The notes beneath the pieces were generated by a model. The model did no database searches and had not been told where the DNA came from. It saw only the letters and a list, made by a program, of their open reading frames with translations. From the NCBI GenBank assembly GCA_004366385.1, contig SIRU01000002.1:1-33979 (forward strand): a stretch of 33,979 nt of DNA. Reading direction: 5' to 3'. Positions 7,116 to 22,208 of this stretch are shown here, in pieces; position 1 is the first letter of the stretch; each line of letters opens with the position of its first letter. The stretch comes from Actinomycetota bacterium. GTDB taxonomy: Bacteria > Actinomycetota > Thermoleophilia > Gaiellales > Gaiellaceae. The position numbers were made by a program, and so were the translations under genes.

Positions 7116-7146
7116 GGCCGAACCCTAGTGTGAGAGGCTTGCGGCC
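7116..7146. promoter_or_regulatory. Second bidirectional promoter with shared TA
   Basis: Minus-strand TAGGGT (7127-7122) lies 6 bases from the GTG at 7115. Plus-strand TAGTGT (7126-7131) lies 15 bases from the GTG at 7147. The hexamers share TA at 7126-7127 and read outward, the same geometry as at 1893-1915. The minus gene would be leaderless; the plus gene would have a leader of only about 8 bases. Confidence 0.55.
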
Positions 7147-7560
7147 GTGACCGAGGCCGACGCCGCTCTCACCGCGACCGCCCGCGAGTCGATGCCGCTG
7201 GCGGACACGCTCGGGCTGGAGATGCTCGCCGCCTCGGCGGAGGAGGTGCGCGCGCGGCTTCCCTTCCAGGAGCGGCTCTGCACCGCCGGCGGGATCCTGC
7301 ACGGCGGCGCGCTCATGTCGCTCGCGGACGCGGCGGGCGCCTACTGCGCGTTCCTCAACCTGCCCGACGGCGCGACCGGCACGGCCACGATCGAGTCGAA
7401 GACGAACTTCTTCCGCGCCGTGCGCGACGGCCACCTGGACGCGGTCTCGCGACCGCTCCACCGCGGCCGGACGACGATCGTGGTCGAGACCGACCTACGC
7501 GACGCCGCCGGCAAGCACGTCGCCCGCGTGACGCAGACGCAGGCCGTGCTCATGGGCTGA
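7147..7560 (+). CDS. PaaI-family hotdog thioesterase
   Basis: A 137-residue single-hotdog-fold acyl-CoA thioesterase. The diagnostic segment GGILHGGALMSLAD (residues 48-61) contains the HGG turn and central-helix Asp of the PaaI subfamily. The later IESKTNFFRAV and GRTTIVVETDLRD strands complete the fold. These enzymes hydrolyse aryl- or acyl-CoA esters as homotetramers, and the precise acyl group cannot be deduced. GTG at 7147 begins the domain. Divergent from the serine hydrolase with overlapping -10 elements, so the two may be co-regulated. Confidence 0.88.
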   Translation: MTEADAALTATARESMPLADTLGLEMLAASAEEVRARLPFQERLCTAGGILHGGALMSLADAAGAYCAFLNLPDGATGTATIESKTNFFRAVRDGHLDAVSRPLHRGRTTIVVETDLRDAAGKHVARVTQTQAVLMG

Positions 7561-7590
7561 GCGAACGCCGCCGCCCCAGCCGGTTCTCGC

Positions 7591-7619
7591 TTGACATACG
7601 CCCGCGGCCACGAAAGGAT
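7591..7619 (+). promoter_or_regulatory. Promoter of S8 protease 1 (TTGACA-17-AAGGAT)
   Basis: A perfect -35 TTGACA (7591-7596), a 17-base spacer and a weaker -10 AAGGAT (7614-7619). The predicted transcript has a leader of about 145 bases before the ATG at 7772. Within it CACGT-AC-ACGTG forms a small inverted repeat near 7651-7662. The 7561-7771 gap has no other feature that I can support. Confidence 0.55.
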
Positions 7620-7771
7620 CGCCCCGCACCGGGCCGGTGCGCCTGGGTGCACGTACACGTGGGGGAATGCTTTCCGCACCTGACGGTGTTTCGAGGGGCC
7701 ATCGCCCCGCGAGGCCGCCTGCGCGCGACAGCCGCCGCCCCCACCGCTCACTCGATGGAGGGAGAGACTCG

Positions 7772-10423
7772 ATGAGTCGATTCAGAATGCGCGGCGTAGC
7801 GCTTGCCGCGGTCGCCGTCCTAGCGGCGTTCGCGGCAACCGTTGCGTTCGCGGGAGCTTCCGGCGTTCAGGAGCTCCATCCCCTCGAGCCGATGGCATCG
7901 GCCGGGGACGGCACGATGACGAACGAGACGCCCAGCTACTGGCTGGTCGAGTTCCCAACCGCCCCGCTCGCCGACGGAAGTCGCGCGGCAGACGTCGCCG
8001 CGGACGCCACGGCCTTCCGTAGCGAGGCCAAGGCGCAGGGCGCAAAGTACTCGGAGCGCATGCGCTTCCAGACCCTCTGGAACGGCGTCACGGTCGAGGC
8101 GTCGGGCGCGGACATCTCGAAGATCCAGGGGCTGTCGTCGGTCGCCGCGGTGTACCCGGGCGCCACGTACACCCTGCCCCCCCGCGCCGAGATCTCACCC
8201 GAGCTCTCGACCGCGCTCGCCATGACGGGTGCCGACGTCGCCCAGAACACGCTCGGCTACACGGGCAAGGGCATCAACGTCGCCGTCATGGACTCCGGCA
8301 TCGACTACCACCATCCGGATCTCGGGGGCGGCTTCGGCAAGGGCAAGCGCGTCTTCACCGGCTGGGACTTCGTCGGCGAGGACTTCGTCGGCGACAACAC
8401 TCCCGTCCCCGACCCCGATCCGGACGACTGCAGACGGCCGAGCGGCGGCAACGCTGCCGGCCACGGCACGCACGTCGCCGGGATCATCGGCGCGAACGGC
8501 GCCGTCAAGGGCGTCGCGCCCGGCATCCGCTTCGGCGCCTACCGCGTCTTCGGGTGCCAGGGCTTCACGACCGCGGAGATCATGATGGCGGCGATGGAGC
8601 GGGCGCTGAAGGACAAGATGGACATCCTCAACATGTCCATCGGCTCGGCGTTCAACACCTGGCCCGGCTACCCGACCGCCGCCGCGAGCGACCGCCTCGC
8701 GAAGAAGGGCGTCGTCGTCGTGGCGTCGATCGGAAACAGCGGTGTCAACGGCATCTACTCCGCCGGCGCCCCTGGCGTCGGCAACAGGGTGATCGGCACG
8801 GCGTCGTTCGACAACACGCACGTCGCGCTGACGACGTTCACGGTGACTCCGGCCGGTCTCACCATCGGCTACGCAGACGCCGCAGCGGCTCCGCTTGCCC
8901 CGACGACGGGCAGCCTGCCGCTCGCGAAGACGGGCACACCGGCGACGACCGACGACGGGTGCGCGCCATTGCCCGCCGGGAGCATGGCCGGCAAGGCCGT
9001 CCTCATTCGGCGCGGCACGTGCACGTTCCACCTCAAGGCGCTGAACGCCCAGGACGCAGGAGCGGCGGCTGTCGTTCTCTACAACAACGCCGCCGGGCGC
9101 TTCAGCCCGACCGTCGCCGGCACTCCGGCGATCACCATCCCCGTCGTCGCGATCTCCGACACGGAGGGCGTCGCCATCAACAACGCGATCGACGGTGGGG
9201 CCCAGACGCTGAACTGGACGGCCAACACCGGCACGTTCCCGAACCCGACCGCCGGGCTGATCTCGTCGTTCAGCTCGTTCGGCCTCGCGGCCGAGCTCCA
9301 GCTGAAGCCCGACATCGGCGCGCCGGGTGGGCTCATTCGCTCGACGTACCCGATCGAATACGGGTCGTACGCCACGATCAGCGGCACGTCGATGTCCTCG
9401 CCGCACGTCGCGGGGGCCGCGGCTCTGCTGCTCCAGTCGTGGAAGGGCAAGGGCAAGGACGACGACGACGACGATGACGACCGCGACAACCGCTCGGAGC
9501 TCGTTCGGGACATCCTCCAGAACAGCGCCGATCCGCGGCCGTGGTTCGGAAATCCCGGTCTCGGCTTCCTGGACAACGTGCATCGCCAGGGCGCCGGGAT
9601 GCTCGACATCGACGACGCGATCCTGGCGACGACGCTCGTGACGCCGGGCAAGCTCTCGCTCGGCGAGGGCACGACGGCGATCAAGAAGCGTCTGAAGGTC
9701 AGGAACAACAGCAAGAAGTCCGTGACGTACGCGATCTCGCACGCACCCGCGCTGAGCACCGGCCCGAACACGTTCGTGCCGGCGTTCTTCACCGGGTTCG
9801 CCGAGGTCACGTTCAGCACGACGTCGCTGACCGTCGGCAAGAGGGCGAACAAGCACCTCGACGTCACGATCACGCCGAACGCGGGGCTCCCCGACCGGAG
9901 CGTCTACGGCGGCTACATCGTGCTCGTCCCGAACGACGGCTCGCCGCCGCTGCGGGTCCCGTACGCCGGGTTCAAGGGCGACTACCAGTCGATCCAGATC
10001 CTGACCCCGACGTCCTTCGGATTCCCGCTGCTCGGGCGGACGGCGGACGGCCTGAACTTCTCGATCGTCCCGCCGGGCGGGGTCTTCAACCTCGTCGGCA
10101 CCCTCGGCCAGCCGAACATCCTCTTCCACATGGATCACCAGGCACGTCGCGCGACCCTGTGGATCGTGAGGGCGTCGGACGGCAAGGTGCTGGGCCGGGC
10201 GACCGAGCTCGAGTTCCTGCCGCGGAACAGCACGGCCACGGGCTTCTTCGCCCTTCCCTGGGACGGCACGTACCTCGCCGGCGAGAAGGGGAAGAAGAAG
10301 GTCACCGTGCCGGACGGCGAGTACCGCTTCACGCTGACCGCGGAGAAGCCGCTCGCCGAGAAGAAGAACCCCGCGCACATCGAGAGCATCACCACGGGGA
10401 ACTTCGTCATCGACCGCCCGTAG
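7772..10423 (+). CDS. Secreted S8 (subtilisin-type) serine protease 1 with PA domain
   Basis: An 883-residue exported protease. A signal peptide (positive start, hydrophobic 8-27) is followed by an I9-like propeptide (about 55-137). The catalytic triad is Asp174 (AVMDSGIDYHHPDL), His231 (GHGTHVAG) and Ser540 (SGTSMSSPHVAG), with Asn322 (SIGNSG) as the oxyanion residue. A protease-associated (PA) domain is inserted between Asn and Ser at about 365-475. Just after the Ser helix is a run of K/G then eight Asp (563-570), an odd charged block. The 300-residue C-terminal part is beta-rich, resembling Fn3-like domains of C5a-peptidase-type subtilases. ATG at 7772 follows the strong Shine-Dalgarno GGAGGGAGAG (7757-7766). 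It probably degrades extracellular protein. Confidence 0.94.
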   Translation: MSRFRMRGVALAAVAVLAAFAATVAFAGASGVQELHPLEPMASAGDGTMTNETPSYWLVEFPTAPLADGSRAADVAADATAFRSEAKAQGAKYSERMRFQTLWNGVTVEASGADISKIQGLSSVAAVYPGATYTLPPRAEISPELSTALAMTGADVAQNTLGYTGKGINVAVMDSGIDYHHPDLGGGFGKGKRVFTGWDFVGEDFVGDNTPVPDPDPDDCRRPSGGNAAGHGTHVAGIIGANGAVKGVAPGIRFGAYRVFGCQGFTTAEIMMAAMERALKDKMDILNMSIGSAFNTWPGYPTAAASDRLAKKGVVVVASIGNSGVNGIYSAGAPGVGNRVIGTASFDNTHVALTTFTVTPAGLTIGYADAAAAPLAPTTGSLPLAKTGTPATTDDGCAPLPAGSMAGKAVLIRRGTCTFHLKALNAQDAGAAAVVLYNNAAGRFSPTVAGTPAITIPVVAISDTEGVAINNAIDGGAQTLNWTANTGTFPNPTAGLISSFSSFGLAAELQLKPDIGAPGGLIRSTYPIEYGSYATISGTSMSSPHVAGAAALLLQSWKGKGKDDDDDDDDRDNRSELVRDILQNSADPRPWFGNPGLGFLDNVHRQGAGMLDIDDAILATTLVTPGKLSLGEGTTAIKKRLKVRNNSKKSVTYAISHAPALSTGPNTFVPAFFTGFAEVTFSTTSLTVGKRANKHLDVTITPNAGLPDRSVYGGYIVLVPNDGSPPLRVPYAGFKGDYQSIQILTPTSFGFPLLGRTADGLNFSIVPPGGVFNLVGTLGQPNILFHMDHQARRATLWIVRASDGKVLGRATELEFLPRNSTATGFFALPWDGTYLAGEKGKKKVTVPDGEYRFTLTAEKPLAEKKNPAHIESITTGNFVIDRP

Positions 10424-10447
10424 GGCGCGTCGACAACCGCTTCATCC

Positions 10448-10474
10448 GAGAGGGCCGGCACCGCCGGCCCTCTC
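10448..10474 (+). terminator. Hairpin terminator of S8 protease 1
   Basis: GAGAGGGCCGGC (10448-10459) and GCCGGCCCTCTC (10463-10474) form a perfect 12-bp stem with loop ACC, 25 bases past the stop. There is no T-run. It could also serve the convergent gene ending at 10572. Confidence 0.75.
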
Positions 10475-10571
10475 GCTTATCTCGCGTTCGGTCTTCAGAC
10501 GCGTGCTGCGGCCCGGCGCTGCAAGGCCGCGGCGCCTCTGTGTGCGCCGCCGCTCGACGGCTACCGCTCGG

Positions 10572-10973
10572 TCAACGTGTCGCGCGCGAGTCGGGGTAGT
10601 GGCGGTCGAGGAGCTCGGCCTGGAGGGCCGGCTTGCAGTCGGCGTCCGAGACCGGGGGCACGACCAAGGCGCGGCTGCCCTTCCCGCCGAGCGCCTGCAC
10701 CGAGGACACGGCGCATGCCGTGACCGGCAGCTCAAACCTGATCGTGAACGTGCCCGTCTTCGACGCGATCCTCGTGCGAACCTGGACGGCGCCGGTGGAC
10801 GAGTAGCGCACGCGAACGCGCTCATACGGCTTGAAGCCCGTGCCCCTGACGGCGAGCGGCCGGGTGTCGAGGACCTTCAGCGACGCTCGCTTCGCCTGCT
10901 TCGCGGGCGCGGCGCTCGCGACGCCCGCGGCCAGGAAGAGGGAGAGACCGACGACGAGCCCCTTACTCGTCAT
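10572..10973 (-). CDS. Small exported GFKPxERV protein, copy 1
   Basis: A 133-residue exported protein of unrecognised family. The N-terminus MTSKGLVVGLSLFLAAGVASAA is a typical signal peptide. The mature part has the core LAVRGTGFKPYERVRVRY (about residues 40-57) and GTFTIRFELPV, like an IPT/TIG or other Ig-like beta-sandwich repeat. Cys86 and Cys112 (estimated) could form a disulfide. The protein at 17065-17424 is a clear paralog (VNGVGFKPRERVTV) with the same layout and the same promoter arrangement. Both sit immediately 3' of an S8 protease, so a role such as protease partner, inhibitor or anchoring factor is a guess. ATG at 10973 has CATACT six bases upstream and no Shine-Dalgarno. Confidence 0.75.
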   Translation of the reverse strand: MTSKGLVVGLSLFLAAGVASAAPAKQAKRASLKVLDTRPLAVRGTGFKPYERVRVRYSSTGAVQVRTRIASKTGTFTIRFELPVTACAVSSVQALGGKGSRALVVPPVSDADCKPALQAELLDRHYPDSRATR

Positions 10974-10979
10974 GCGGCG

Positions 10980-10985
10980 AGTATG
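10980..10985 (-). promoter_or_regulatory. -10 element (CATACT) of GFKPxERV copy 1
   Basis: CATACT on the minus strand, exactly 6 bases from the ATG at 10973. The identical hexamer and spacing occur before the paralog at 17424. It supports leaderless expression. Confidence 0.5.
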
Positions 10986-11022
10986 CCACCCGTGCTCCCG
11001 GCGCCGCCGTGGGCGCACGCGA

Positions 11023-11042
11023 TTCTCACGAAGTTCTCACGA
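11023..11042 (-). promoter_or_regulatory. Direct repeat with 11-bp period, possible response-regulator site
   Basis: TTCTCACGA occurs twice (11023-11031 and 11034-11042) with an 11-base period, the spacing used by OmpR/PhoB-family regulators. It lies about 50-70 bases upstream of the predicted transcription start of the gene at 10572-10973, a usual activator position. No regulator gene is in the window. Confidence 0.4.
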
Positions 11043-11085
11043 CCGGCCGCCGCCGCAGCCGGCGGCAACAGTCGAGCACCGCCGC

Positions 11086-11490
11086 CTACGCGACGAGCTC
11101 GAACTCGACCCCGACGCGCTCGTAGATTGCGAGGGCGCGCGTGTCGAGTGTCGTCAACCTCGCGTCCGCCGCGGCTGCGGTGATCGCGATCAGGCCGTCG
11201 TACGTCGCTCCACCTGCGACGCCGAGCTGCTGAAGCCGCGCGAGCGCCGTGCGGAGCGCATCGGCCGGCAGCCCGAGCCAGCGCTCCCCGAACTCGAGCT
11301 CCAGCCACTCGCGCACGACCTCGGCAGCCATTCGATGAGGCTCGGGCAGACGGGTGAGGACCGAGTACGTCTCATACGCGGCATGCGCGACGATGCTCGG
11401 ACGCCGCCCGAGGGCGGAGCGGGCGTCGAGGTGACGCGGATGCCACTCGGCGAACGCCGCGACAGCGATGCTCGCGTCGACGGCGTTCAG
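11086..11490 (-). CDS. vapC: VapC-type PIN-domain toxin, probable CTG start
   Basis: A 134-residue PIN-domain ribonuclease, toxin of a type II pair. All four acidic active-site positions are in place: Asp5 (NAVDAS), Glu48 region (AAYETYSVL), the Asp in GATYDGLIA and the Asp in TTLDTRA. Length matches full VapC proteins only if translation begins at CTG 11490. That codon overlaps the antitoxin stop as CTGA, mimicking the usual ATGA coupling. No ATG, GTG or TTG lies in frame within the last 15 antitoxin codons. The first in-frame ATG (11331) would remove the first Asp and Glu. It is either a rare CTG start under translational coupling or a start-codon mutation that silences the toxin. Confidence 0.82.
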   Translation of the reverse strand: MNAVDASIAVAAFAEWHPRHLDARSALGRRPSIVAHAAYETYSVLTRLPEPHRMAAEVVREWLELEFGERWLGLPADALRTALARLQQLGVAGGATYDGLIAITAAAADARLTTLDTRALAIYERVGVEFELVA

Positions 11491-11732
11491 CGGCGGATCT
11501 TCTCGAGCGTCTCGCGAACGAGCTCGTGGGTGAGCGGCGGTAGCTCGCGCTCGGGAACCGCGACCCAGTGGCCGTCTCGCTGCTCCAGTCGGACCGCGGT
11601 GACGACGGGCTCGATCTCGATCCGGCCGTCCGCAAGCGTCACCTCGATCTCCTCGCCCCCACGGAGACCGAGCTCATCCCTCATCGCCTTCGGCACGACG
11701 ACCCGACCTGCCTTGTCAATGGTAGTTCTCAT
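11487..11732 (-). CDS. vapB: AbrB/SpoVT-type antitoxin
   Basis: An 81-residue antitoxin with an N-terminal swapped-hairpin AbrB DNA-binding domain: TTIDKAGRVVVPKAMRDEL (residues 3-21) is the classic signature, followed by GGEEIEVTLADGRIEIEP. The C-terminal 35 residues are Glu/Arg-rich and would wrap the PIN toxin. Antitoxins of this kind repress their own operon by binding a palindrome at the start. Here a TGCCAT-CAGC-ATGGCA inverted repeat touches the ATG. The gene begins 44 bases after the uvrA stop on the same strand, so read-through from the SOS-controlled uvrA promoter is possible. Confidence 0.9.
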   Translation of the reverse strand: MRTTIDKAGRVVVPKAMRDELGLRGGEEIEVTLADGRIEIEPVVTAVRLEQRDGHWVAVPERELPPLTHELVRETLEKIRR

Positions 11733-11747
11733 GCCATCAGCATGGCA
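11732..11747. promoter_or_regulatory. Candidate operator of vapBC
   Basis: TGCCAT (11732-11737) and ATGGCA (11742-11747) form an inverted repeat with 4-base centre CAGC. It abuts and overlaps the vapB start by one base, as expected for autorepression by the AbrB-type antitoxin. In RNA it could also form a small hairpin that hides the start. Confidence 0.5.
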
Positions 11748-11776
11748 CAGGAAGTACCATCTCGCCAGCTCCGAGC

Positions 11777-14617
11777 TCAGGCCGCCGCTGCCGCCGGCTC
11801 CGCGAGCACGCCGCGCAGGAACGCGCCCGTCGCGGACGCCTCCACCTCCGCCACGTCCTCCGGCGTGCCGGTTGCGATCACCTCTCCCCCGGCCTCGCCG
11901 CCCTCGGGGCCGAGGTCGACGATCCAGTCGGCCTGCTTGATCACGTCCAGGTTGTGCTCGATCACGAGCACCGTGTTGCCGTTGTCCACGAGCCGCTGCA
12001 GCACCTCGAGCAGCTTCTCGATGTCCGCGAAGTGGAGCCCTGTCGTCGGCTCGTCGAGGATGTAGAGCGTCTTCCCGGTCGCGACCTTCGAGAGCTCGGC
12101 GGCGAGCTTCACGCGCTGCGCCTCGCCTCCGGAGAGCGTCGTCGCGGGCTGCCCGAGCTTGACGTAGTCGAGGCCCACGTCGTGCAGGGTCTGGAGCCTG
12201 CGCCGGATCTTCGGGATCTTCGCGAAGAACTCGAGCGCCTCCTCGACCGACATCTCCAGCACGTCCGCGATCGACCTCCCCTTGAACCGGACCTCGAGCG
12301 TCTCCTTGTTGTACCGCCGCCCGTGGCAGGTCTCGCACGGCACGTACACGTCCGGGAGGAAGTGCATCTCGATCTTGATCGTCCCGTCCCCCTTGCACGC
12401 CTCGCAGCGCCCGCCGCGCACGTTGAACGAGAACCGCCCGGGCTTGTAGCCGCGGATCTTCGCCTCCGGGGTGAGCGAGTACAGCTCGCGCACGTGCGTG
12501 AAGAGGTCGGTGTAGGTCGCCGGGTTCGACCTGGGGGTTCGACCGATCGGGCTCTGGTCGATGTCGATGACCTTGTCGAAGCACTCGATCCCCTCGACCG
12601 ACTCGTGGTCGCCCGGCTTCACGCGCATCCGGTTGAGCCGGTTCGCGAGCGCCTTGTACAACACCTCGTTCACGAGCGTGGACTTCCCCGAGCCGGAGAC
12701 GCCGGTCACCGCGACGAAGCGGCCGACGGGGAAGTCGACGTCGATCGACTTCAGGTTGTGCATCGAGGCGCCGCGCACCGAGAACCAGCCGCGGCCGTTC
12801 TCCCCGCGCCGCACAGGGATCGCGATCCGCCGCTCGCCGCTCAGGAACTGGCCCGTGACCGAGCCCTCCGTGGCCGCCACCCCCTCGGCCGTGCCCTCGG
12901 CGACGACCTCGCCGCCGTGCTCGCCCGCGCCCGGGCCCATGTCCACGATCCAGTCGGCCGAGCGCATCATCTGCTCGTCGTGCTCGACGACGAGGACGGT
13001 GTTGCCGAGGTCGCGCAGCCGCTCGAGCGTCGCGATCAGCTTCCCGTTGTCGCGCTGGTGCAGCCCGATCGAGGGCTCGTCGAGGATGTAGAGGACACCG
13101 ACGAGCTGCGATCCGATCTGGGTCGCGAGCCGGAGCCGCTGCGCCTCGCCGCCGGAGAGCGTCTTCGCCGCGCGGTCGAGCTGGAGGTAGCCGACGCCGA
13201 CGTTGTCGAGGAAGGTCAGCCGCTCGCGCACCTCCTTCACGATCCGCTGCCCGATCAGCTCCTCGGTCGTCGTCAGCTCCAGCCCGCCGAGGAACTCGAG
13301 CGCGCGCGTCACCGACATCTGCGTGAAGCCGTGGATGGAGAGCCCGCCGATCGTGACCGCGAGCACCTCCGGCTTGAGCCGCGCGCCGCCGCACTCGGGG
13401 CACGCCCGGAAGCTCATGTACTCCTCGATCCGCTCGCGCGCGTGCGAGGAGTCGGTCTCCTTGTAGCGGCGCTGGAGGTTCGACAGGAGGCCCTCGAACG
13501 CCATCGTGTACTGCCGCCGCCGCCCCATGCGGTTGCGGTACGTGACGAAGATCTTGTCGCCGCCGGTGCCGTGCAGGAACTTGCCCTGCTGTTCCGGGGT
13601 GAGCTCGCGCCACGGGACGTGGAGCGGGATCTCGTAGCGATCGGCGATCGCCTCGACGACCGAGTCGTAGAAGCTCTGGCTGCCGACCGTCCACGGGACG
13701 AGCGCGCCCTCCTCTATCGAGAGCGAGCTGTCGGGAACGAGCAAATCGGGGTCGATCTCGAGCTGCGAGCCGAGGCCGGTGCAGCGCGGGCAGGCGCCGT
13801 GCGGGGAGTTGAACGAGAAGACGCGCGGCTCGAGCTCCGGGAGCGAGACGCCGTGCTCCGGGCACGCGAAGTTCTCCGAGAACGTGAGCTCCTCGCCGTC
13901 GACGACGTCGATCACGACCAGCCCCTCTGCGAGCGACGTGGCCGTCTCGATGGACTGCGTCAGGCGCTGCCGGAGATCCGGCTTCATGACGAGCCGGTCG
14001 ACGACGACCTCGATCGTGTGCTTGAGCTTCTTGTCGAGCTCGATCTCCTCCTCGAGCAGCCGTTGCTCGCCGTCGACCTTGACGCGCGTGAAGCCGTCGC
14101 GGCGGAGCTCCTCCAGCACCTCGCGGTACTCGCCCTTGCGGTCGCGGACGACCGGCGCGTTCACCGTGAAGCGCGTGCCCTCGTCGAGCCGCAGCACCTG
14201 CTCGACGATCTGGTCGAGCGACTGGCCGGCGATCGGGCGTCCGCAGACCGGGCAGTGCGGCCGGCCGACGCGCGCGTACAGCAGGCGCAGGTAGTCGTAG
14301 ATCTCCGTGACCGTCCCGACGGTGGAACGGGGGTTCCGGGACGTCGTCTTCTGGTCGATCGAGATCGCCGGCGAGAGCCCGTCGATCGAGTCCACGTCCG
14401 GCTTCTCCATCATCTGCAGGAACTGGCGCGCGTACGCCGAGAGCGACTCGACGTAGCGACGCTGACCCTCGGCGTAGATGGTGTCGAACGCGAGCGAGGA
14501 CTTGCCGGAGCCGGAGAGCCCGGTCACGCACACGAGCGCGTTCCGCGGGATGCGGACGGTGACGTTCTTCAGGTTGTGCTCGCGCGCCCCGTGGACGATC
14601 AGCTGCTCGGCGCTCAT
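11777..14617 (-). CDS. uvrA: Excinuclease ABC subunit A
   Basis: Damage-recognition ATPase of nucleotide excision repair; it loads UvrB at lesions. The 946-residue protein has two ABC ATPase modules: Walker A GLSGSGKS at 33-40 and GVSGSGKS in the second half, and signature LSGGEAQR twice. It has the UvrA zinc modules (CPVCGRPI with a later CPEHG region, [13 protein letters not shown], and CEACKGDG paired with [10 protein letters not shown]). Length and order are typical. ATG at 14617 is the family start, and TACAAT lies nine bases upstream with a LexA box just beyond. The C-terminus ends in an Ala-rich tail (LAEPAAAAA). Confidence 0.97.
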
Positions 14618-14626
14618 CGGCGCGCC

Positions 14627-14632
14627 ATTGTA
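14627..14632 (-). promoter_or_regulatory. -10 element (TACAAT) of uvrA
   Basis: TACAAT on the minus strand, 9 bases before the ATG at 14617, so the leader is at most 2-3 bases. The LexA box at 14639-14652 occupies the spacer and -35 side, ideal for repression. Confidence 0.65.
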
Positions 14633-14638
14633 CCCGGA

Positions 14639-14652
14639 CGAACAGACGTTCG
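14639..14652. promoter_or_regulatory. LexA (SOS) box of uvrA
   Basis: CGAAC-AGAC-GTTCG is a perfect match to the Gram-positive/actinobacterial LexA box CGAAC-N4-GTTCG. It lies 6 bases upstream of the uvrA -10 element. uvrA is a classical SOS gene, so damage-induced control is strongly supported. Confidence 0.88.
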
Positions 14653-14726
14653 CCTCCGGCGGGGGATGCGCCGCGGCCGGGGCTCGGCGTCGATGTGACG
14701 GTCAGCCGTCGACGAAGGAGGAACAC

Positions 14727-15281
14727 ATGAAGCGATCCGCGATCGCTCTCGCCGCCGCCGGGCTCGGTGTCACGCTCGTGGCGGCGGGCGTCGGGCTCGC
14801 AGGCCCGGGCGCAGCCGCCCAGGACTCCGCCTACGGCGGAGGCCGCCACGCCGGAGCCGGCACGTGCACCGACGGAGCCACTCCGTTCTGCCCCGCGAAC
14901 TCGCGCGAGTTCAGCCTCGACGCGCACGCCGCGCCGTCTGGGCGGGGCGCGAGCGGGACGCTCGAGTACGCCGTCCCGGAGACGGAGCAGATCCTCGTGA
15001 GCGGAGACGTCACGTGCCTGCGCGTGACCGGGAACCGCGCGGTGGTCGGCGGACGGATCACCGAAGGGCCGTCCACGGGCGCGGGGTTCGCGATGCGGCT
15101 CGAGGACGTCGGGCGGCCAGGCGCGAGCAAGCGCGACCGCGTCAGCCCCGTCTACCTGCTGTTCTCGTCCGAGGAGCCGCCGGGCTTCCCGCGCACCTGC
15201 CCTCCGTTCGACTGGGATGCGTTCGGGGACATCGGCTTCTTCACGCAGACGTTCGGCGACGTCTCGGTCCACGACCGCTGA
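14727..15281 (+). CDS. Secreted protein of unknown function
   Basis: A 184-residue exported protein. The signal peptide spans about residues 1-32 ([21 protein letters not shown] core, cleavage near AAAQ). The mature part has Cys residues in TCTDG, PFCPA, VTCLRV and RTCPP, and a beta-rich segment [20 protein letters not shown]. That segment recurs in uncharacterised actinobacterial exported proteins, as far as I recall. No catalytic motif was found. Expression signals are strong: Shine-Dalgarno AAGGAGG at 14715-14721, five bases before the ATG, and a perfect GC hairpin at 15292-15319 after the stop. It is convergent with the Cys-pair repeat protein and lies in a run of exported-protein genes. 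Confidence 0.72.
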
Positions 15282-15291
15282 GCCGGCGCAC

Positions 15292-15319
15292 GCCCGGGCC
15301 GGCGACCGCCGGCCCGGGC
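15292..15319. terminator. Bidirectional hairpin terminator
   Basis: GCCCGGGCCGGC (15292-15303) and GCCGGCCCGGGC (15308-15319) form a perfect 12-bp stem with loop GACC. It sits between two convergent genes. Its last base is the last base of the minus-strand gene's stop codon, so one hairpin may end both transcripts. Confidence 0.7.
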
Positions 15320-16530
15320 TACCGCCTCTCGCTGCGCGGGAGCCCCGCGCTCGTCCCGCGGACGCACCCGGCGCGATCGGCCGCGACGGGAGCGATCGCG
15401 GCGCAGGCCCGCCTTCGGGCCGTGGCCGTCGTCGAGAAGCGGCCCATGATCGTCCCGATCGCCCCGAAGCACGGCTCGCGCAGTCCGTCGTCCAGGTCCG
15501 AGCAGAGCACGGCCGCTTCCTCCCCGCCCGTGAAGTTGGCGGTCATGTCCATGGCCGCGAACCTGATGCAGTCGCGCTCGCCGCCGAACGGGCGCGCGGC
15601 GGCGCACGCCTCGGCGATCTCCTGGGGATCGCGATGCGACTGACCGGACACGTCCCGGCCCATCGACTCGAAGCACGACGCGACCCAGCCGGCCTCGACG
15701 CCCGCGCACGCCTCGGCGACCCGCTCCCAGTCGGGGCCGACGACCTGGAGCACCCGCGACGTGACGAGCTGGTAGCAGACCGCCTTGTCCCTCGGAGCGA
15801 CCGCGGAGCACGGGTAGACGGGGTCGTCGTCGCGCAGCCAGCGCGAGCGGAAGCCGTACGACGTCGAGATGTTCTCCATGAAGACCCCGCCCTTGCAGGA
15901 CTCTCGGTCCCAGCTCCCGCCGAGGCGGTTGCAGACGCGGAGCGAGCGCGGGAGGTCGTAGCCGGTCGTGATCATCAGGCCGTGCCCGAGCCCGTGCAGG
16001 CACTGGTACGCGAGCCAGGCCACGGTGCGCACCTCGCGGTCGTCGCACAGGTCCCTCGCGACCGCTGCGAGCCGCTCGGGCTGGTAGCCGCGCACGTCGA
16101 GCAGCGCCCGCTCGAGGACGCCGTGGTAGTAGCCGGACCAGCACGTCGCCGAGCCGTTCGCGAACGTCCGCGCGACGTTCCCGCGGTTCCGCGCGAACGC
16201 CGCTGAGCCGATGGTGTGCGCCACGCGGTGGCAGGCGGGGTCGGACTCGTCGGCGTACTGGGCGTCGAACCGGCGCAGCGCCGCCTTCGCTCCCTGACGG
16301 TAGGCGATGTTCCCGTAGGCCTGTTCCACGCAGCGCTGATCCGAGCACTCGTCGAGGGTCGTGTCGTCGGGTCTGAAGGAGCCCGCGACCGGATGGAGCG
16401 GAACCGCCGCTGTCGGCGTCTGCCCTCCACCGTCGGTCAAGACCACCGCGGCCACGGCCAACTCGACCCCGGCCGCAGCGACGATGAGGGCGACGACGGC
16501 TCGAAGCCGGGCTCGGCGATCCCCGCGCAT
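15319..16530 (-). CDS. Exported Cys-pair repeat protein with His-rich motifs (unknown family)
   Basis: A 403-residue exported or membrane-anchored protein I cannot assign. An N-terminal hydrophobic segment (about 10-31) is a signal or anchor. Eighteen Cys occur, at 62, 67, 100, 130, 162, 177, 200, 212, 241, 252, 275, 286, 309, 321, 343, 354, 376 and 389. From residue 162 they fall into seven units of about 34-40 residues, each with two Cys 11-15 apart, the second followed by an aromatic or aliphatic residue and a helix. This suggests disulfide-stapled helical hairpins, as in Sel1-like or Hcp-type repeats. The N-terminal half carries CHRVAH (100-105), YYHG (134-137) and CLHGLGHG (177-184), a possible metal site. 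ATG at 16530 has GATACT eight bases upstream. Divergent from the lipoprotein gene. Confidence 0.72.
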   Translation of the reverse strand: MRGDRRARLRAVVALIVAAAGVELAVAAVVLTDGGGQTPTAAVPLHPVAGSFRPDDTTLDECSDQRCVEQAYGNIAYRQGAKAALRRFDAQYADESDPACHRVAHTIGSAAFARNRGNVARTFANGSATCWSGYYHGVLERALLDVRGYQPERLAAVARDLCDDREVRTVAWLAYQCLHGLGHGLMITTGYDLPRSLRVCNRLGGSWDRESCKGGVFMENISTSYGFRSRWLRDDDPVYPCSAVAPRDKAVCYQLVTSRVLQVVGPDWERVAEACAGVEAGWVASCFESMGRDVSGQSHRDPQEIAEACAAARPFGGERDCIRFAAMDMTANFTGGEEAAVLCSDLDDGLREPCFGAIGTIMGRFSTTATARRRACAAIAPVAADRAGCVRGTSAGLPRSERR

Positions 16531-16538
16531 CCTGCAGA

Positions 16539-16544
16539 AGTATC
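16539..16544 (-). promoter_or_regulatory. -10-like element (GATACT) of the Cys-pair repeat gene
   Basis: GATACT on the minus strand, 8 bases before the ATG at 16530. It lacks the initial T of TANNNT but keeps the key A and final T. Confidence 0.35.
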
Positions 16545-16604
16545 GGCACGGCGCGGACGACCGCCAAGGGGCTGCTCACGCAACCCCTCGTCTGCACGGG
16601 GCGA

Positions 16605-16610
16605 TACCCT
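16605..16610 (+). promoter_or_regulatory. -10 element (TACCCT) of the lipoprotein gene
   Basis: TACCCT is exactly 6 bases before the GTG at 16617. There is no Shine-Dalgarno sequence, and the arrangement fixes the start. Confidence 0.55.
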
Positions 16611-16616
16611 CGAGCG

Positions 16617-17057
16617 GTGCGGACGCTCGCGTGCATCGGTGTCGCGCTCGCGGCCTTCGCCTCCGGGTGCAGCGGGAACGACGAGCGGGTCTGGTCTGGC
16701 CCTCCGCAGCCGGCCGCGGACGGCAGCGTCTCCGTGGCGGAGTTCGCCGCGTACCAGGAGGCAGTCGACGAAGCGTGGGAGCGTTCCGCCGTGCTCGTGG
16801 CGGCGCAGTTCACGGCCGTCGGCGAGACCAGGGCCACCAGCAAAGGCATCCGTGCCTCGAGCTCGGAGGAGGGCACCGGCCCCGAGACGGTGACGGTGAC
16901 GTTCGACGGGCTCCTCGACGACTCCGTGCGCGCCGAGCGCTGGACGCTCGAGCTCGAGCCCTCGGGCAGCGTCTACCGGCTCGTCTCGGCCCGCCTCGAG
17001 CGGCGTTGCCAGCCGGGCCGGGGGCACGAGGAGTTCTCGCCCGAGCCCTGCGCGTAG
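16617..17057 (+). CDS. Small lipoprotein
   Basis: A 146-residue protein with a lipoprotein signal: MRTLACIGVALAAFASGC, where the lipobox FASGC makes Cys18 the likely lipidated residue. The rest is polar, with an Ala/Glu-rich helix (about 40-70) and a beta segment ETVTVTFDGLLDD. There are two more Cys near the C-terminus. No family was recognised. GTG at 16617 is chosen because it starts the signal peptide and has TACCCT six bases upstream. Convergent with GFKPxERV copy 2, with 7 bases between their stops, and divergent from the Cys-pair repeat gene. Confidence 0.72.
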   Translation: MRTLACIGVALAAFASGCSGNDERVWSGPPQPAADGSVSVAEFAAYQEAVDEAWERSAVLVAAQFTAVGETRATSKGIRASSSEEGTGPETVTVTFDGLLDDSVRAERWTLELEPSGSVYRLVSARLERRCQPGRGHEEFSPEPCA

Positions 17058-17064
17058 GGATGTT

Positions 17065-17424
17065 CTAGGGCTCGCGGCAGTCGGGGCGCGGCACCTGGTA
17101 CACGACCCTGCTTCCCCGGGAGCCGATCGCACGCACCGTGACCGTCGCGCAGCGCCCCAGCCGGACCGGGAAGCGGACGGTGAACCGGCCCTGGCGACTC
17201 GCCTGCACGCGCCTCGTGCCGCGCTTGCCCCCGTCGAGGGTCACGGTTACCCGCTCGCGCGGCTTGAAGCCCACGCCGTTCACGGTCAGCGGATACAGCT
17301 CCGCGACCAGCAGGCGCGGCTTGAGGACGACTTGCGTCGACCCTCCGTCGGCGCCTGAGCCGGTCCCGCACCCCAGCCCGAACACGACCACCGACGACAG
17401 CACGGCGAGCATACGCCGGCGCAT
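17065..17424 (-). CDS. Small exported GFKPxERV protein, copy 2
   Basis: A 119-residue exported protein, paralog of the one at 10572-10973. Shared features are an N-terminal signal, LTVNGVGFKPRERVTVTL (copy 1: LAVRGTGFKPYERVRVRY), a GRFTVRFPV strand and two late Cys separated by about 25 residues. The signal ends VVFGLGCGTG, so Cys19 may be lipidated, although the -3 residue is not the usual Leu. The Ig-like (IPT/TIG) fold is an inference. It lies 75 bases downstream of S8 protease 2 on the same strand, after a hairpin. CATACT lies 6 bases before the ATG, identical to copy 1, so it is probably transcribed separately and leaderless. Confidence 0.73.
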   Translation of the reverse strand: MRRRMLAVLSSVVVFGLGCGTGSGADGGSTQVVLKPRLLVAELYPLTVNGVGFKPRERVTVTLDGGKRGTRRVQASRQGRFTVRFPVRLGRCATVTVRAIGSRGSRVVYQVPRPDCREP

Positions 17425-17430
17425 GACGGC

Positions 17431-17436
17431 AGTATG
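17431..17436 (-). promoter_or_regulatory. -10 element (CATACT) of GFKPxERV copy 2
   Basis: CATACT on the minus strand, exactly 6 bases before the ATG at 17424. Its -35 region would fall within the hairpin at 17449-17480. Confidence 0.5.
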
Positions 17437-17448
17437 CCGTGCCTCGAA

Positions 17449-17480
17449 GGCGAGGGCCGCCCCTGAGGGCGACCCTCGCC
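17449..17480 (-). terminator. Hairpin terminator of S8 protease 2
   Basis: GGCGAGGG (17449-17456) pairs with CCCTCGCC (17473-17480), and inside it CGCCC (17458-17462) pairs with GGGCG (17467-17471) around loop CTGA, with one C-A mismatch between the two stems. It starts 19 bases after the stop at 17500. Confidence 0.7.
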
Positions 17481-17499
17481 GCGTACGCGACCCGGGACA

Positions 17500-20400
17500 T
17501 TACGGTGCGGTCTTCGTCACCGTGATCGGCACGGAGATCGCAGCAGGTGCTGACGGCGGCCCGAGCATGAGCAGGCCGAAGTAGTCCTGCCCGTCGACCA
17601 TGTCGAGCTTCGAGTAGTCGACTGTGACGGTCACCGGCGTCCCGGCCGGAACCGGCCCCGAGGGAGCAGTCACCGTCAGGTCGTTCCCCTGGATCGGGTC
17701 GATGGTGAGCTCCGCGGTCGGCGTCCCGGTGACAGCCCAGCCCTGCACCCACACCTGGTAGTTGCCGTCCGGCGGGAGGTTGAGCTGCACGAACTCGTCG
17801 CCCGTCGGCGTCGTGGACGCACCGACGATCTCCGCGTTCGTGAAGTTCCCGTCGCCGTTGGCGTCACGCACGACGAAGAGATCGATGTCGTCTCCGGTCG
17901 TCATGCGCGTTCTCACGGTGAGCCGCCCGGCATGACTCAGCGTGAGGTTCCGCTTCACGCTCGCCGAGCTCGGGTCGTTCGGGTCGTCCTGCTGCACCGT
18001 GACGTTCTCCAGCGTCGGCTGCGAGAGGCCGAACGCGTGGGCGGCCAGCCCGTCGAGCGCAAAGCCCGACGTGAAGGTCACGTCGAACGTGCCCGTGCCA
18101 TCGATGGTCGTCTCGACGACCGAGGACGGGGCGACCGACGCGCCGGCGACCTCGCTCAGGAACGGCGCGTGGAACTTCCCGCCATGCCAGCCGACCTGGT
18201 GCAGGACCACGGCGTGCAGCCCGTCCTGCGCAGGTGCAGTGACGAAGTCGGCCGCACCCCCGGTCGCGGTGTCGAACAGCCAGACGCCCCCGCCGAGGTT
18301 CGCGTTGGGGCTCCCGCCGACGGTGTCGAGGATGTACGGCGCCCCGAACACGGTGTCGGGAAAGAGCTGGAAGTGGTTCACGGCAGGACCGAAGAGCAGC
18401 GTGTCGAGGTCCGTGAACGGAGCCGTGTCGTCCCAGGTCGTCCGGGTCAGGAAGAGCGATCCGGGCGGCGGCTCCTGCCCGACGTCGAAGTAGAAGAACC
18501 GCCAGTCGCCGGACTCGGCGCGCCAGGTCCAGTCGTTCGCGCCGAAGACGGACCCGTTGTTGTAGAGGAGGTCCTTCTGCGCCTCGGCCACTGCCGGCCC
18601 GCCGAACGTCAGCGCGCCGGTGAGGTTGCCGGCGGCGTCCTGCGTCGCAGTCGCCGCGACCGCCACCGACACCGGGATCACCATCGAGTCGCCGCTCCGC
18701 GACAGCTCGATCGCGCCTGCGTACATGCCGTACGGCGTCCCGGGCGGCACGCTGATCGACGCCGCGAACGAGCCGCTCGCCGTCGCCGGCGTCGACATCC
18801 ACGCCCAGTCGACGTTCTCGTAGAAGTCGATCTGGACCTGGAAGTCGGTGATCGGGATGGCGTTGCTCCTGAGCGAGTGCTGGAGGCCCATGAAGATCCC
18901 GTCCGCCTCCTTCAGGCGCCTCGCCGGTTCCCGGAGAAACGACATGAGCGCGTTGGAGCCCGCCCGGTGGTACATGTTGCGGACGTACTCGCCCTCGTCG
19001 ATCTCCGACTTCTTGAAGTCGATGTCGAGGAAGCCGTCGATGTTGCTGCTCGTCGTGTGGATGACCTTGTCGACGACCCCGTCGCCGTCCTTGTCCCGCC
19101 ACAGCCGGCCGTCACGGTCGATGTCGGTCCAGCTGTAGGTGAGCAGCCGCCAGTCCTGGTTCTGGCTGTAGTTCCCGTCGGGGTCGAACTGCTCCCGTGG
19201 GTAGTTCAGCCGGATGACCATGAGGTCGGCGTTCTTGTGCGACCTGATCAGCGGCGAGAGGTCGCGCAGGTAGTCGGGCGCGTTGAAGTTGTACGGGCTC
19301 TCGTTCGACACGTGCTTGCTCGAGAACGAGAACGACTTGGTCCCGGTCCGCTTCAGCATCCGGTCGGACACGTTCCACGTACCCGCGCCGGTCAGCGTGA
19401 ACGTCTGAGTATCGGAGCCGCCGGGCGCGATGACGTGCGCGAACACGTCGTACTCGGTCCCGCGATAGTCGCCGGCGCGCCACTGGCTCGGCGAGACACG
19501 CGCACGCTGCCCGAGCGCCGTCTTGACCGCCTTTCCGGCATCGATCGAGCCCGCACCCTGAATCGTCGACTCGTACCCGAGGTCCTGCGCCGACGACTTC
19601 AGGATGTCCTCGACCGTGGTGTAGAAGCCCAGCGGCAGCGGGCCGGGGTTCGCCTGCCGGTACGCCTGGTACACGAGAGCAGCAGCCGCTCCGGCCACGG
19701 GCGCGGAACGGCTCGTCCCGCCCCAGGTCGCCCACGCCTCGTTGCCGTGGAGCACCGCGTTCAGCGTGACGTCGCCTGCCGAGAACGCACCGTCGGCGAC
19801 GACGTCGACGCCCGGCCGGCCCGTCGCCCCGAACCCGCGGTTCGACCAGACCATCACCTCGTTGTCGACGACCTGGCCGATCCTGTCGATCGAGTCCCAG
19901 CCCGTGCCGCCGAACTGCGTGGAGGCGCCGACCTCGATACCTGCGGCCGGTGCCGGCGGCGCGGTCGTCCCGAAGCCGGGCGCACCGTTCCCAGTGGAGA
20001 AGAGCGCCGTCGTCCGGCGCCCTGCGTGGATGACGTCGGCCTCCTGGCTCGCCGCGTCGTAGCCGTCGTTGTCGACCGCCGAGTCGCCGTACGAGTTCGT
20101 CGTCACGTCGACACCGAGGCGCGTCGCGAGGAAGTACCCGAACTGCGTGGAGAAGTCGAACGAGAAGTAGATGTCCCCGAACGGGGCGAGCTTGGCGTGC
20201 GGGGCGCCGCCGATGACCGCGCCCGGGTACGTCTTGCCGCCCCCGTCGTCGCCGTGCCCCTTGCCGCGGCACGGAACGGCGCCGGTCTTCTTGCGGAGAT
20301 CGGAGAAGCACGGCGCCTTGCCGTTGATGACGCCCTGGCCGACGACGTTGGACGCGGTCAGCGTGCCGTGACCGCCGATGGCCGGGTCGTAGTCTCCCGT

Positions 20401-21696
20401 CCAGGCGAGGAGCTGCCCGGGTGCGAAGGCGCTCCCGGGTATCCCGCCGAACGCGAACACGCCGCCGGGGACGCTCGTCACCCCGTCCGAGATGTAGTAC
20501 AGGAGCCCGCCCGAGATGTCGGTGTAGCCGTCGCCGTCCATGTCCCTGTACGAGACGGGCGAGGACTTGGACGCGGGCTTCTCGTCGGCGAAGTCGTAGT
20601 CGCCGTCGAGATCCACGTAGACGGTGTCGTAGATGCCCGCCGTCTTCGGATCGGTGACGAGGAACGCGGGCCGCTCGCCGAAGATCGCGAGCAGGTGGTC
20701 GTCGGGATGGCTCCCGAGCCGCACGTTCCCGGACTTCGACCACTCCGCGGGGAACGTGTAGTCGTGCGTGACGGTGCCGCTCGGTGCGTTGAAGTTGCGC
20801 GCCGGCCCCGTGCGCGTGGCGAAGTTGACGGTGCACGTCTTGTTCTTGCCGTGGCCCTTCTTGCCCGGGCCAGTGAGCGAGCAGGTCTTCGCCTGGGTCA
20901 GCGTGTACCAGCTGAGACCCTGGGGGATGAAGCTCGGCGCGGCGAGCCAGACGAGCGTCCCGTACGGATCGAACGCCTTCGGCCAGCCGTCCCAGCCGGG
21001 ATCCGGAGCGCCCGACCACGTCTGCCAGGTGCCGATCAGGTCGGGGTGGCCGAAGTCGGTGCCGCCGTCGAGGACGCCGACGGTCGTGCCGGCGCCGGTG
21101 AACCCGGCCTTCCACGCCTCGACGAAGTTGTGCGTCTTCGCGTCGAGAACGGCGAGCTTCTTGAGTTGCTCGAAGTTCGAGCCCTTGAGCTTGGGCGCCT
21201 TCGAGAACGGGACCTCGCGCTTGTAGAGGCCCTTGAGCACCGCGTTCACCTTCTGCTTGTCGAAGGGCTTCGCGAGCTCCGGCTCGGGGCTCCCGAGCGG
21301 CGCACCCGTCTGCTCGAAGTCGATGGGGCCGACGCTGACCACGCCCCTGGCGCCGGCCAGCTTCGGCAGGGCCTGCACCGTGGTCTCGCCGACGACGAGC
21401 GCGGCGCCGCCGGAGGCGGCCACCTTGTCGTCGTCCAGGAGCGCGCGCACGGGTGCCGCGCTGCCCTCCACGGTGACGAACACCTTGACGTCCTCGGTCG
21501 AGCCGCTCTCCACCTTCTCGACGAGCGCGGGATGCAGCTTCGAAAGCGCCCCGGATGACGCGGTCTCCACCGATCCCGGCCCCTTCGCCGCGTCGCTCGA
21601 GTCGGCGACGACGCTCGCGGGCACCGCGAGCACCACGGCCGCGGCGGCGACCACGAGAGCGGCGCGCCTGGCAAACCGATCGTAGAAAAGGCTCAT
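17500..21696 (-). CDS. Large secreted S8 serine protease 2 with Ca-binding-like insert
   Basis: A 1398-residue exported subtilase. A signal peptide (hydrophobic 12-30) is followed by a propeptide-like region to about 190. The triad is Asp210 (VGVLDGGTDFGHPDL), His443 (GGHGTLTAS) and Ser662 (GGTSRSAPVAG), with Asn570 (STGNG) as the oxyanion residue. About 230 residues separate Asp and His, far more than usual. This insert contains Asp-rich loops DLDGDYDFADE (362-372) and DMDGDGYTDISG (385-396), like Ca-binding repeats. More such loops occur near 865-885 (DIDRDGR, DKDGDGVVDK) and 1275-1290 (DANGDGNF). The last 200 residues are beta-rich and pre-peptidase-C-like. ATG at 21696 follows AGGGGGAGG; in-frame upstream codons are not signal-like. 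Confidence 0.93.
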   Translation of the reverse strand: MSLFYDRFARRAALVVAAAAVVLAVPASVVADSSDAAKGPGSVETASSGALSKLHPALVEKVESGSTEDVKVFVTVEGSAAPVRALLDDDKVAASGGAALVVGETTVQALPKLAGARGVVSVGPIDFEQTGAPLGSPEPELAKPFDKQKVNAVLKGLYKREVPFSKAPKLKGSNFEQLKKLAVLDAKTHNFVEAWKAGFTGAGTTVGVLDGGTDFGHPDLIGTWQTWSGAPDPGWDGWPKAFDPYGTLVWLAAPSFIPQGLSWYTLTQAKTCSLTGPGKKGHGKNKTCTVNFATRTGPARNFNAPSGTVTHDYTFPAEWSKSGNVRLGSHPDDHLLAIFGERPAFLVTDPKTAGIYDTVYVDLDGDYDFADEKPASKSSPVSYRDMDGDGYTDISGGLLYYISDGVTSVPGGVFAFGGIPGSAFAPGQLLAWTGDYDPAIGGHGTLTASNVVGQGVINGKAPCFSDLRKKTGAVPCRGKGHGDDGGGKTYPGAVIGGAPHAKLAPFGDIYFSFDFSTQFGYFLATRLGVDVTTNSYGDSAVDNDGYDAASQEADVIHAGRRTTALFSTGNGAPGFGTTAPPAPAAGIEVGASTQFGGTGWDSIDRIGQVVDNEVMVWSNRGFGATGRPGVDVVADGAFSAGDVTLNAVLHGNEAWATWGGTSRSAPVAGAAAALVYQAYRQANPGPLPLGFYTTVEDILKSSAQDLGYESTIQGAGSIDAGKAVKTALGQRARVSPSQWRAGDYRGTEYDVFAHVIAPGGSDTQTFTLTGAGTWNVSDRMLKRTGTKSFSFSSKHVSNESPYNFNAPDYLRDLSPLIRSHKNADLMVIRLNYPREQFDPDGNYSQNQDWRLLTYSWTDIDRDGRLWRDKDGDGVVDKVIHTTSSNIDGFLDIDFKKSEIDEGEYVRNMYHRAGSNALMSFLREPARRLKEADGIFMGLQHSLRSNAIPITDFQVQIDFYENVDWAWMSTPATASGSFAASISVPPGTPYGMYAGAIELSRSGDSMVIPVSVAVAATATQDAAGNLTGALTFGGPAVAEAQKDLLYNNGSVFGANDWTWRAESGDWRFFYFDVGQEPPPGSLFLTRTTWDDTAPFTDLDTLLFGPAVNHFQLFPDTVFGAPYILDTVGGSPNANLGGGVWLFDTATGGAADFVTAPAQDGLHAVVLHQVGWHGGKFHAPFLSEVAGASVAPSSVVETTIDGTGTFDVTFTSGFALDGLAAHAFGLSQPTLENVTVQQDDPNDPSSASVKRNLTLSHAGRLTVRTRMTTGDDIDLFVVRDANGDGNFTNAEIVGASTTPTGDEFVQLNLPPDGNYQVWVQGWAVTGTPTAELTIDPIQGNDLTVTAPSGPVPAGTPVTVTVDYSKLDMVDGQDYFGLLMLGPPSAPAAISVPITVTKTAP

Positions 21697-21729
21697 TGGG
21701 CCTCCCCCTATGTGATGTGCGCAATCCCC

Positions 21730-21747
21730 CCGGCCATGGGAGGCCGG
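21730..21747 (-). other. Hairpin in the leader of S8 protease 2
   Basis: CCGGCC (21730-21735) and GGCCGG (21742-21747) with a 6-base loop, between the predicted transcription start and the Shine-Dalgarno. It could stabilise the mRNA 5' end or tune translation. Confidence 0.35.
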
Positions 21748-21757
21748 ACGCGGCGGC

Positions 21758-21786
21758 ATCATGCGACGCCTACACCTCGAAGTCAA
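21758..21786 (-). promoter_or_regulatory. Promoter of S8 protease 2 (TTGACT-17-CATGAT)
   Basis: On the minus strand, TTGACT (21786-21781), a 17-base spacer and CATGAT (21763-21758). It predicts a leader of about 55 bases with a strong Shine-Dalgarno. Like S8 protease 1, this gene has a -35 near TTGACA, unlike most genes here. The rest of the 21697-21860 gap holds nothing else I can support. Confidence 0.55.
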
Positions 21787-21860
21787 GTCGATCGCTCCGG
21801 CCGGGGCCGTCGGGGCCGCGAACCTGCGACGCCGGGGCTACCGGCGCCTTCTAGGAGAGA

Positions 21861-22106
21861 TCAGCGCTTGGCGGTGCGCCAGCGGCCGAAGATGAGGCCG
21901 CCGACCGTGAGGCCGAGACCGAACGTCCCGAGGGCGAACGCACCGATGGCGATCGTCTTCCGCCACAGGGAGAGCCGCCGCCAGCGGCCGATCGCCTCCA
22001 CCTCCTCGGACGTCAGCGGCTCGCCGCGGCGTTGCTTCCGCACGGCCCCGCCGGCCCGCAGCCCGAGGTAGATGTCGTCGAAGAGCTCCGGCGCTTCGTT
22101 CGCCAC
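21861..22106 (-). CDS. Small membrane protein
   Basis: An 81-residue protein of unknown function. Residues 1-45 are polar (VANEAPELFDDIYLGLRAG, then a basic stretch with QRRGEPLTSEEVEAIGRWRR). A hydrophobic segment of about 23 residues (IAIGAFALGTFGLGLTVGGLIFG) and a basic end RWRTAKR follow, so a single-pass membrane protein with N-in or N-out topology is expected. GTG at 22106 is selected because TACACT lies exactly 6 bases upstream and there is no Shine-Dalgarno. Divergent from the M32 carboxypeptidase gene. Confidence 0.68.
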   Translation of the reverse strand: MANEAPELFDDIYLGLRAGGAVRKQRRGEPLTSEEVEAIGRWRRLSLWRKTIAIGAFALGTFGLGLTVGGLIFGRWRTAKR

Positions 22107-22112
22107 GCTGCG

Positions 22113-22118
22113 AGTGTA
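22113..22118 (-). promoter_or_regulatory. -10 element (TACACT) of the small membrane protein gene
   Basis: TACACT on the minus strand, 6 bases before the GTG at 22106. It is the same hexamer and spacing as at the FmdB-family gene. Confidence 0.55.
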
Positions 22119-22190
22119 ACGCCTGCCCCGGCCGTGACCGCGGTGTTCACGAGCTCGCAAAGCTCCCGCACCTGGGCCGGTTCCCGTGGA

Positions 22191-22196
22191 TAGAGT
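22191..22196 (+). promoter_or_regulatory. -10 element (TAGAGT) of the M32 carboxypeptidase gene
   Basis: TAGAGT is 12 bases before the GTG at 22209, predicting a leader of about 5 bases. No Shine-Dalgarno is visible. Confidence 0.45.
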
Positions 22197-22208
22197 TCGC
22201 GACCGCCC

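Follow-up and report, generated by a model that had tools for sequence, protein, structure and literature searches.

Why do two S8 protease (subtilase) genes in one stretch of DNA each stand beside a gene for a small exported protein of the same kind, here called GFKPxERV? The stretch, referred to below as the window, is 33,979 nucleotides long and makes up an entire 34-kb contig (G000:C2) of a 2.73-Mb genome in 63 contigs, which has ten S8 genes and two GFKPxERV small genes. A preliminary description, made from the letters of the window, had considered that the small proteins may be partners of the proteases, such as inhibitors, chaperones, activators or surface anchors. In the open-access part of the literature that was searched, we found nothing on this protein family or its pairing. 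Our main finding is that the small genes are indeed linked to S8 proteases, but as one case of a broader association with large exported proteins.

Two pairs of protease and small genes in the window

The observation of two S8 genes each paired with a small exported-protein gene is confirmed, open reading frames and coordinates included (Table 1). The Pfam model Peptidase_S8 (cutoff 21.8) matches both proteases, P0003 with 162.4 bits (2e-47) and P0004 with 66.2 bits (3.9e-18). P0003 has an S8 domain with an inserted PA domain, an fn3_5 domain (Pfam) and a signal peptide recognized by eye; P0004 has the S8 domain and a weak PPC-like C-terminal Pfam match below cutoff. Asp-His-Ser catalytic motifs can be read directly in both predicted proteases, as VMDSG, GHGTHVAG and GTSMSSPH in P0003 and as VLDGG, GHGT and GTSRSAP in P0004, where the Asp motif is atypical. 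Short S8 motifs are the sole part that the two have in common when aligned. A near-full-length relative of P0003, 47.5% identical, is encoded in genome G001 (L051:3127-5685), about 3.6 kb away from the small gene of that genome. A search of the order's 128 other genomes found no relative of P0004 at E<=1e-30, so this protease looks acquired.

The small proteins are true paralogs (BLASTP, 38% identity over 109 aa, E 2e-15), and a signal-peptide-like N-terminal stretch can be seen by eye in both. As had been described, pair 1 converges, with a gap of 148 nt, and pair 2 runs in line, with a gap of 75 nt. Among the best 20 of 23 direct repeat families found at 7000-22200, one repeat is common to both small genes, a 51-nt coding match of 73%; together with the differing protease architectures, this leaves a recent operon or segmental duplication unsupported. 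A candidate third family member in the window genome (contig C12, E 0.03) was rejected, as the frames there cannot be read as small exported proteins.

Two other frames of the window may be mentioned. Behind small gene 1, an open frame on the minus strand (11086-11550) looks PIN-domain-like by eye, and its first listed start (11331) seems too late. On the plus strand, the product of the frame at 30253-30852 looks by eye as if it begins with a signal sequence, and it matches collagen repeats weakly (E 3.7e-4, below cutoff).

Table 1. Positions of the paired genes and CATACT boxes in the window, and of the TGIR genes at other loci
Feature	Location	Strand	Basis or remark
S8 subtilase 1 (P0003, 883 aa)	7772..10423	+	Pfam
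Small exported GFKPxERV protein 1 (P0001, 133 aa)	10572..10973	-	
CATACT -10-like box, 6 nt before small 1 ATG	10980..10985	-	putative leaderless start
Small exported GFKPxERV protein 2 (P0002, 119 aa)	17065..17424	-	
CATACT -10-like box, 6 nt before small 2 ATG	17431..17436	-	
S8 subtilase 2 (P0004, 1398 aa counted from ATG at 21696)	17500..21696	-	
Stand-alone TGIR	L064:9223-9885		by lipA
Stand-alone TGIR	L072:16540-17076		by lipA
Stand-alone TGIR	L074:16611-17039		by lipA
Stand-alone TGIR, first copy	L070:16033-16473		by lipA
Stand-alone TGIR, second copy	L070:17318-17854		by lipA; split over two frames
TGIR	L063:9132-9563		overlaps or passes far end of lipA

A lineage-restricted family with a predicted Ig-like fold

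The small-protein family is lineage-restricted. A search of all 129 genomes of the order (E<=1e-6) gave matches in 24 genomes, at 30 places. Stand-alone small genes number 29, in 23 genomes of the order; G255 and G013 were left out of this set, as the domain there sits in a large frame. All copies but one (28 of 29) belong to the window's own family (22 of 103 genomes), and the remaining one to a sister family (G221). Beyond the order, 199 genomes sampled from the class yielded two weak matches only, both in larger frames. In a 27-row alignment, Gly44, Phe47, Gly74 and Cys87 are invariant, and Pro39, Phe76, Ala94, Gly99 and Cys113 nearly so. The tree drawn from this alignment is weak, with stars on 2 of its 24 inner branches; it groups small protein 2, and not small protein 1, with the copy at L041, another neighbour of an S8 gene (90/75).

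AlphaFold2, run on P0002 and four relatives, predicts a seven-strand sandwich (mean pLDDT 79.1, core about 90) with strands between residues 37 and 110 of P0002, a model that has the features of an Ig-like beta-sandwich. Structural comparison matches it to Ig-like and FN3 folds of a generic kind, to adhesin repeats and to macromomycin/neocarzinostatin; VIA-align gives Z-scores of 9.2 for an adhesin repeat protein and of 7.6-8.3 for FN3 scaffolds, and Foldseek returned no match at E<=0.001. Sequence searches of the PDB gave nothing convincing (best E 0.1), and scans with Pfam and NCBIfam no model above its cutoff. The nearest named Ig-like models, GxPGS_dom, CoaZ_rpt_PGGG and Ca_tandemer (NCBIfam), all stayed below, the best score seen being 22.4 bits for CoaZ_rpt_PGGG against a cutoff of 30; Big_6 (Pfam) reached 14.9 against 27.6.

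The small-protein profile also finds domains within larger proteins of the class (1e-7 in G172, 2e-7 in G255, 1.6e-6 in G167 and 8.5e-6 in G013). Such domains (L084, L098, L099, L100) look Ig-like and lie directly behind a signal-peptide-like stretch; an hhalign match of 97% to L088-L090 is weakened by the choice of these loci by motif. With bacterial Ig-like surface domains of the 'GxGFxPGExVxV' type, the small protein shares the motif, the predicted beta-sandwich and export, but here the domain is the whole protein, has a C-terminal cysteine and is encoded beside large exported proteins. The small protein is probably best seen as a free-standing Ig-like domain.

Neighbouring genes and the fumC-lipA interval

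Fetched stretches around the matches were annotated with profiles for S8, BNR3, BNR6, S1, M36 and the flanking housekeeping genes. BNR6 genes were identified from Pfam matches below cutoff and BNR3 genes from repeats seen by eye; judging from their sequences, these BNR-type proteins may adopt a beta-propeller fold. A gene of the S8 or BNR type is in view at 23 of the 29 copies and lies within 500 nt of 20 of them, for about 0.5 expected (about 0.38 S8 and 0.16 BNR, from 208 S8, 66 BNR6 and 24 BNR3 matches counted over 61.5 Mb of whole genomes). Naive p-values overstate this excess, because the loci have common ancestry and because the BNR profiles, which were derived from neighbours of the small gene, favour such neighbours. 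Taken by themselves, S8 genes are direct neighbours (within 500 nt) of 5 of the 29 copies, for 0.38 expected, and are in view at 8, for 1.27 expected within 5 kb. BNR-type genes are in view at 18 copies, including a BNR6 fragment (second copy of L047) and a BNR3 remnant (L048). Four other copies have an M36 gene (L062), an S1 gene (L059) or a gene of exported family c18 (L042, L060), and two, at the ends of short contigs (L044, L054), have no large exported gene in sight. The association with S8 genes goes beyond chance in related genomes, but it is not specific for proteases, S8 being just one type of neighbour beside BNR-type, M36, S1 and c18. Some gene starts used here are ORF starts, so that short gaps (for example at L061 and L065) are minimum estimates. 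The orientation of the small gene to its neighbour is mixed, and co-transcription is therefore not general.

Tentatively, with a probability of roughly 0.4, we favour the reading that the small protein works, on its own, as an Ig-like accessory for large exported proteins. The members of the family are exported, predicted single-domain Ig-like proteins that share one conserved cysteine pair, and several are encoded behind a common CATACT box that would be their own leaderless promoter; their genes keep company with those of large exported proteins (S8, M36 and S1 proteases, BNR-type proteins). Outside the cell, the Ig-like module would be a general accessory, for example one that docks, stabilises or tethers these proteins at the surface, rather than inhibiting any single protease. 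This reading draws on the 20 of 29 copies with a close neighbour and on two comparisons given below, involving copies outside the fumC-lipA interval and complete intervals with and without the small gene; it draws also on the Ig-like core with its pLDDT of about 90, on the similar domains in larger proteins, and on a gene fusion at L060. If it is true, one small partner serving exported enzymes of unrelated kinds would be an accessory of a new sort that is easy to test; each of the 23 genomes that have the small gene has 2 to 21 S8 genes, and other exported proteins. Several facts speak against it, among them the mixed orientation and the exported cargo of intervals that lack the small gene (below). 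Moreover, the gene was found in just 22 of the 103 family genomes, many of which are incomplete, and neighbour type partly clusters by descent. On the small-protein tree, all neighbour labels taken together are clustered (6 of 200 shuffles as low) and the BNR6 label somewhat so (14 of 500), which is what descent at one locus would give.

Either fumC or lipA is found in the same fetched stretch as 22 of the 29 copies; six copies were judged to lie outside the interval between these genes, and one (L046) is undecided. This interval swaps exported-protein cargo with or without the small gene. Exported enzymes or BNR-type genes, recognized by model match or by eye, occur in 9 of 11 complete intervals that lack the small gene: BNR3 (L071), BNR6 and S8 (L072), S8 (L080), S1 (L070, L073, L074, L077, L079), a pro-kumamolisin-type protein (L074:11672-13672), an M6 immune-inhibitor-A-type metallopeptidase (L079:3134-5578) and, recognized by eye alone, an exported protein resembling glycoside hydrolases in the fumC-lipA interval of the window genome (L076). 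None was seen in L078 and L082. These 11 intervals are a hand-picked set, for which 17 genomes were searched for lipA (no match in G052; G029 and G255 left out around lipA); one comes from the sister family, and two (L076, L082) from genomes that have a small gene elsewhere.

Since the interval has exported genes even in the absence of the small gene, the shared location may be a hot-spot effect, and the small protein may be an independent exported protein carried as a passenger in recombination hot spots, with neighbours that are common by location and not by function. We consider this second reading slightly less probable, and the two are close. Besides the changing cargo, it is favoured by the variation of strand and partner among the copies, by P0004, which looks acquired, and by L051, where the small gene and a BNR6 gene stand between lipA copies as if inserted by recombination. 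There, a truncated (8495-9178) and a full lipA (12059-12997), 97.9% identical over 575 nt, bracket the two genes, which suggests that homologous recombination exchanged this segment, or that the assembly is at fault. Were the small gene a mere passenger, the fumC-lipA interval would still be a clear housekeeping slot that exchanges exported proteins.

Two observations tell against the passenger and for the accessory. At several different sites outside the interval, the small gene keeps a large exported neighbour in all six cases (both window copies, L055, L061, L062 and L083, one of which belongs to another family, G221), namely two S8, one BNR3, two BNR6 and one M36 gene, at gaps of 13-271 nt. 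The window and L083 were called outside as the fumC-lipA intervals of their genomes are elsewhere (L076, L082), L055 and L062 as their genome, G074, has the interval at L063, and L061 as an 18-kb stretch with neither fumC nor lipA. Presence of the small gene also tracks S8/BNR content: of the complete intervals, 7 of the 8 that contain the small gene have such genes, versus 3 of the 11 that lack it (Fisher p 0.015), a comparison that leaves out L075, which is truncated, L081, where no fumC was seen, and all one-anchor loci.

A second small family bears on the same locus. At L060:5692-6351, a GFKPxERV domain is fused to a second small exported domain ending in DTGIR, and genes for this 'TGIR' domain are also found at lipA (Table 1), together with a GFKPxERV small gene at L063 and L064 and without one at L070, L072 and L074. 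Sequences from L060, L070, L072 and L074 served as seeds of the TGIR profile, and its independent finds are those of L063, L064 and the second copy of L070; it does not match the GFKPxERV domain of L060 (domain E 67). Together this suggests that GFKPxERV and TGIR proteins may be related in role. It is a further, rather unlikely step to see both as interchangeable extracellular adaptors of a recombining cassette of exported proteins, which would serve many unrelated hydrolases and BNR-type proteins, the partner being swapped while the adaptor stays.

A dedicated partner of the adjacent S8 protease, be it an inhibitor, an immunity protein or an activator, now appears improbable. The distances are suggestive, as the window copies lie 75-148 nt from the 3' ends of the S8 genes and those of L041, L050 and L052 lie at similar gaps of 45-82 nt, and Ig-fold protease inhibitors exist. 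But the BNR-type proteins encoded in view of 18 of the 29 copies are not proteases by any match seen. The S8 proteins encoded directly alongside range in length from 578 to 1398 aa; in other genomes they are mostly 23-34% identical to P0003, the 47.5% relative excepted. The copies with a direct S8 neighbour do not form a clade, their label being unclustered on the tree (164 of 500 shuffles as low), and S8 genes occur in fumC-lipA intervals without any small gene (L072, L080). This lack of protease specificity makes a dedicated inhibitor unlikely. Like SSI, I9 and chagasin-type I42 inhibitors, the small proteins are small and exported, and 8 of the 29 loci have an S8 gene in view; they differ in that most neighbours are not proteases, and none of these inhibitor models is among the 8 Pfam families matched by the 27 members at E<=0.1.

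The least probable reading is that of a neocarzinostatin-like carrier, a small secreted Ig-fold protein binding a small lipophilic ligand. The neocarzinostatin and macromomycin apoproteins are small secreted actinobacterial Ig-fold proteins too, and the cysteine pattern of neocarzinostatin is a different one. Macromomycin (Z 8.9) and neocarzinostatin (Z 8.6) are among the top structural matches, but other Ig-like and FN3 folds score about equally. The NCBIfam enediyne chromoprotein model (NF040680) finds weak matches in 7 of the 27 members, the best with E 0.0026, but the scores seen are 11.6-17.6 bits, where the cutoff is 86, and the match extends over the first half of the protein, mostly the signal peptide and first strands; the Pfam neocarzinostatin family is absent among the matches.

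The CATACT box

An identical CATACT-N6-ATG in front of both small genes had been noted from the start, and the window indeed contains exactly two such sites, both there, where shuffles give 0.01. The box is found at 7 of the 29 small genes and is conserved in the family; the 8 CATACT-N6-RTG sites in 530 kb (the window and 39 fetched regions) include 7 at which a small gene starts. That it is private to the small family was rejected, since five of the seven CATACT-N6-RTG sites in the whole window genome precede unrelated frames. lipA and fumC are among other genes that start at the same distance behind TACACT or TACCAT, and leaderless initiation may be common in these bacteria. These data suggest that the CATACT box is a leaderless promoter of the small genes' own.

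Elsewhere in the window genome (contig C51), an unrelated exported-looking protein of 135 aa (L091:3650-4054) has the same start, CATACTCGCCGCATG, as small gene 1. It lies beside a gene for a 769-aa tannase-like DUF6351 protein (L091:4215-6521), and the two form another pair of a small and a large gene.
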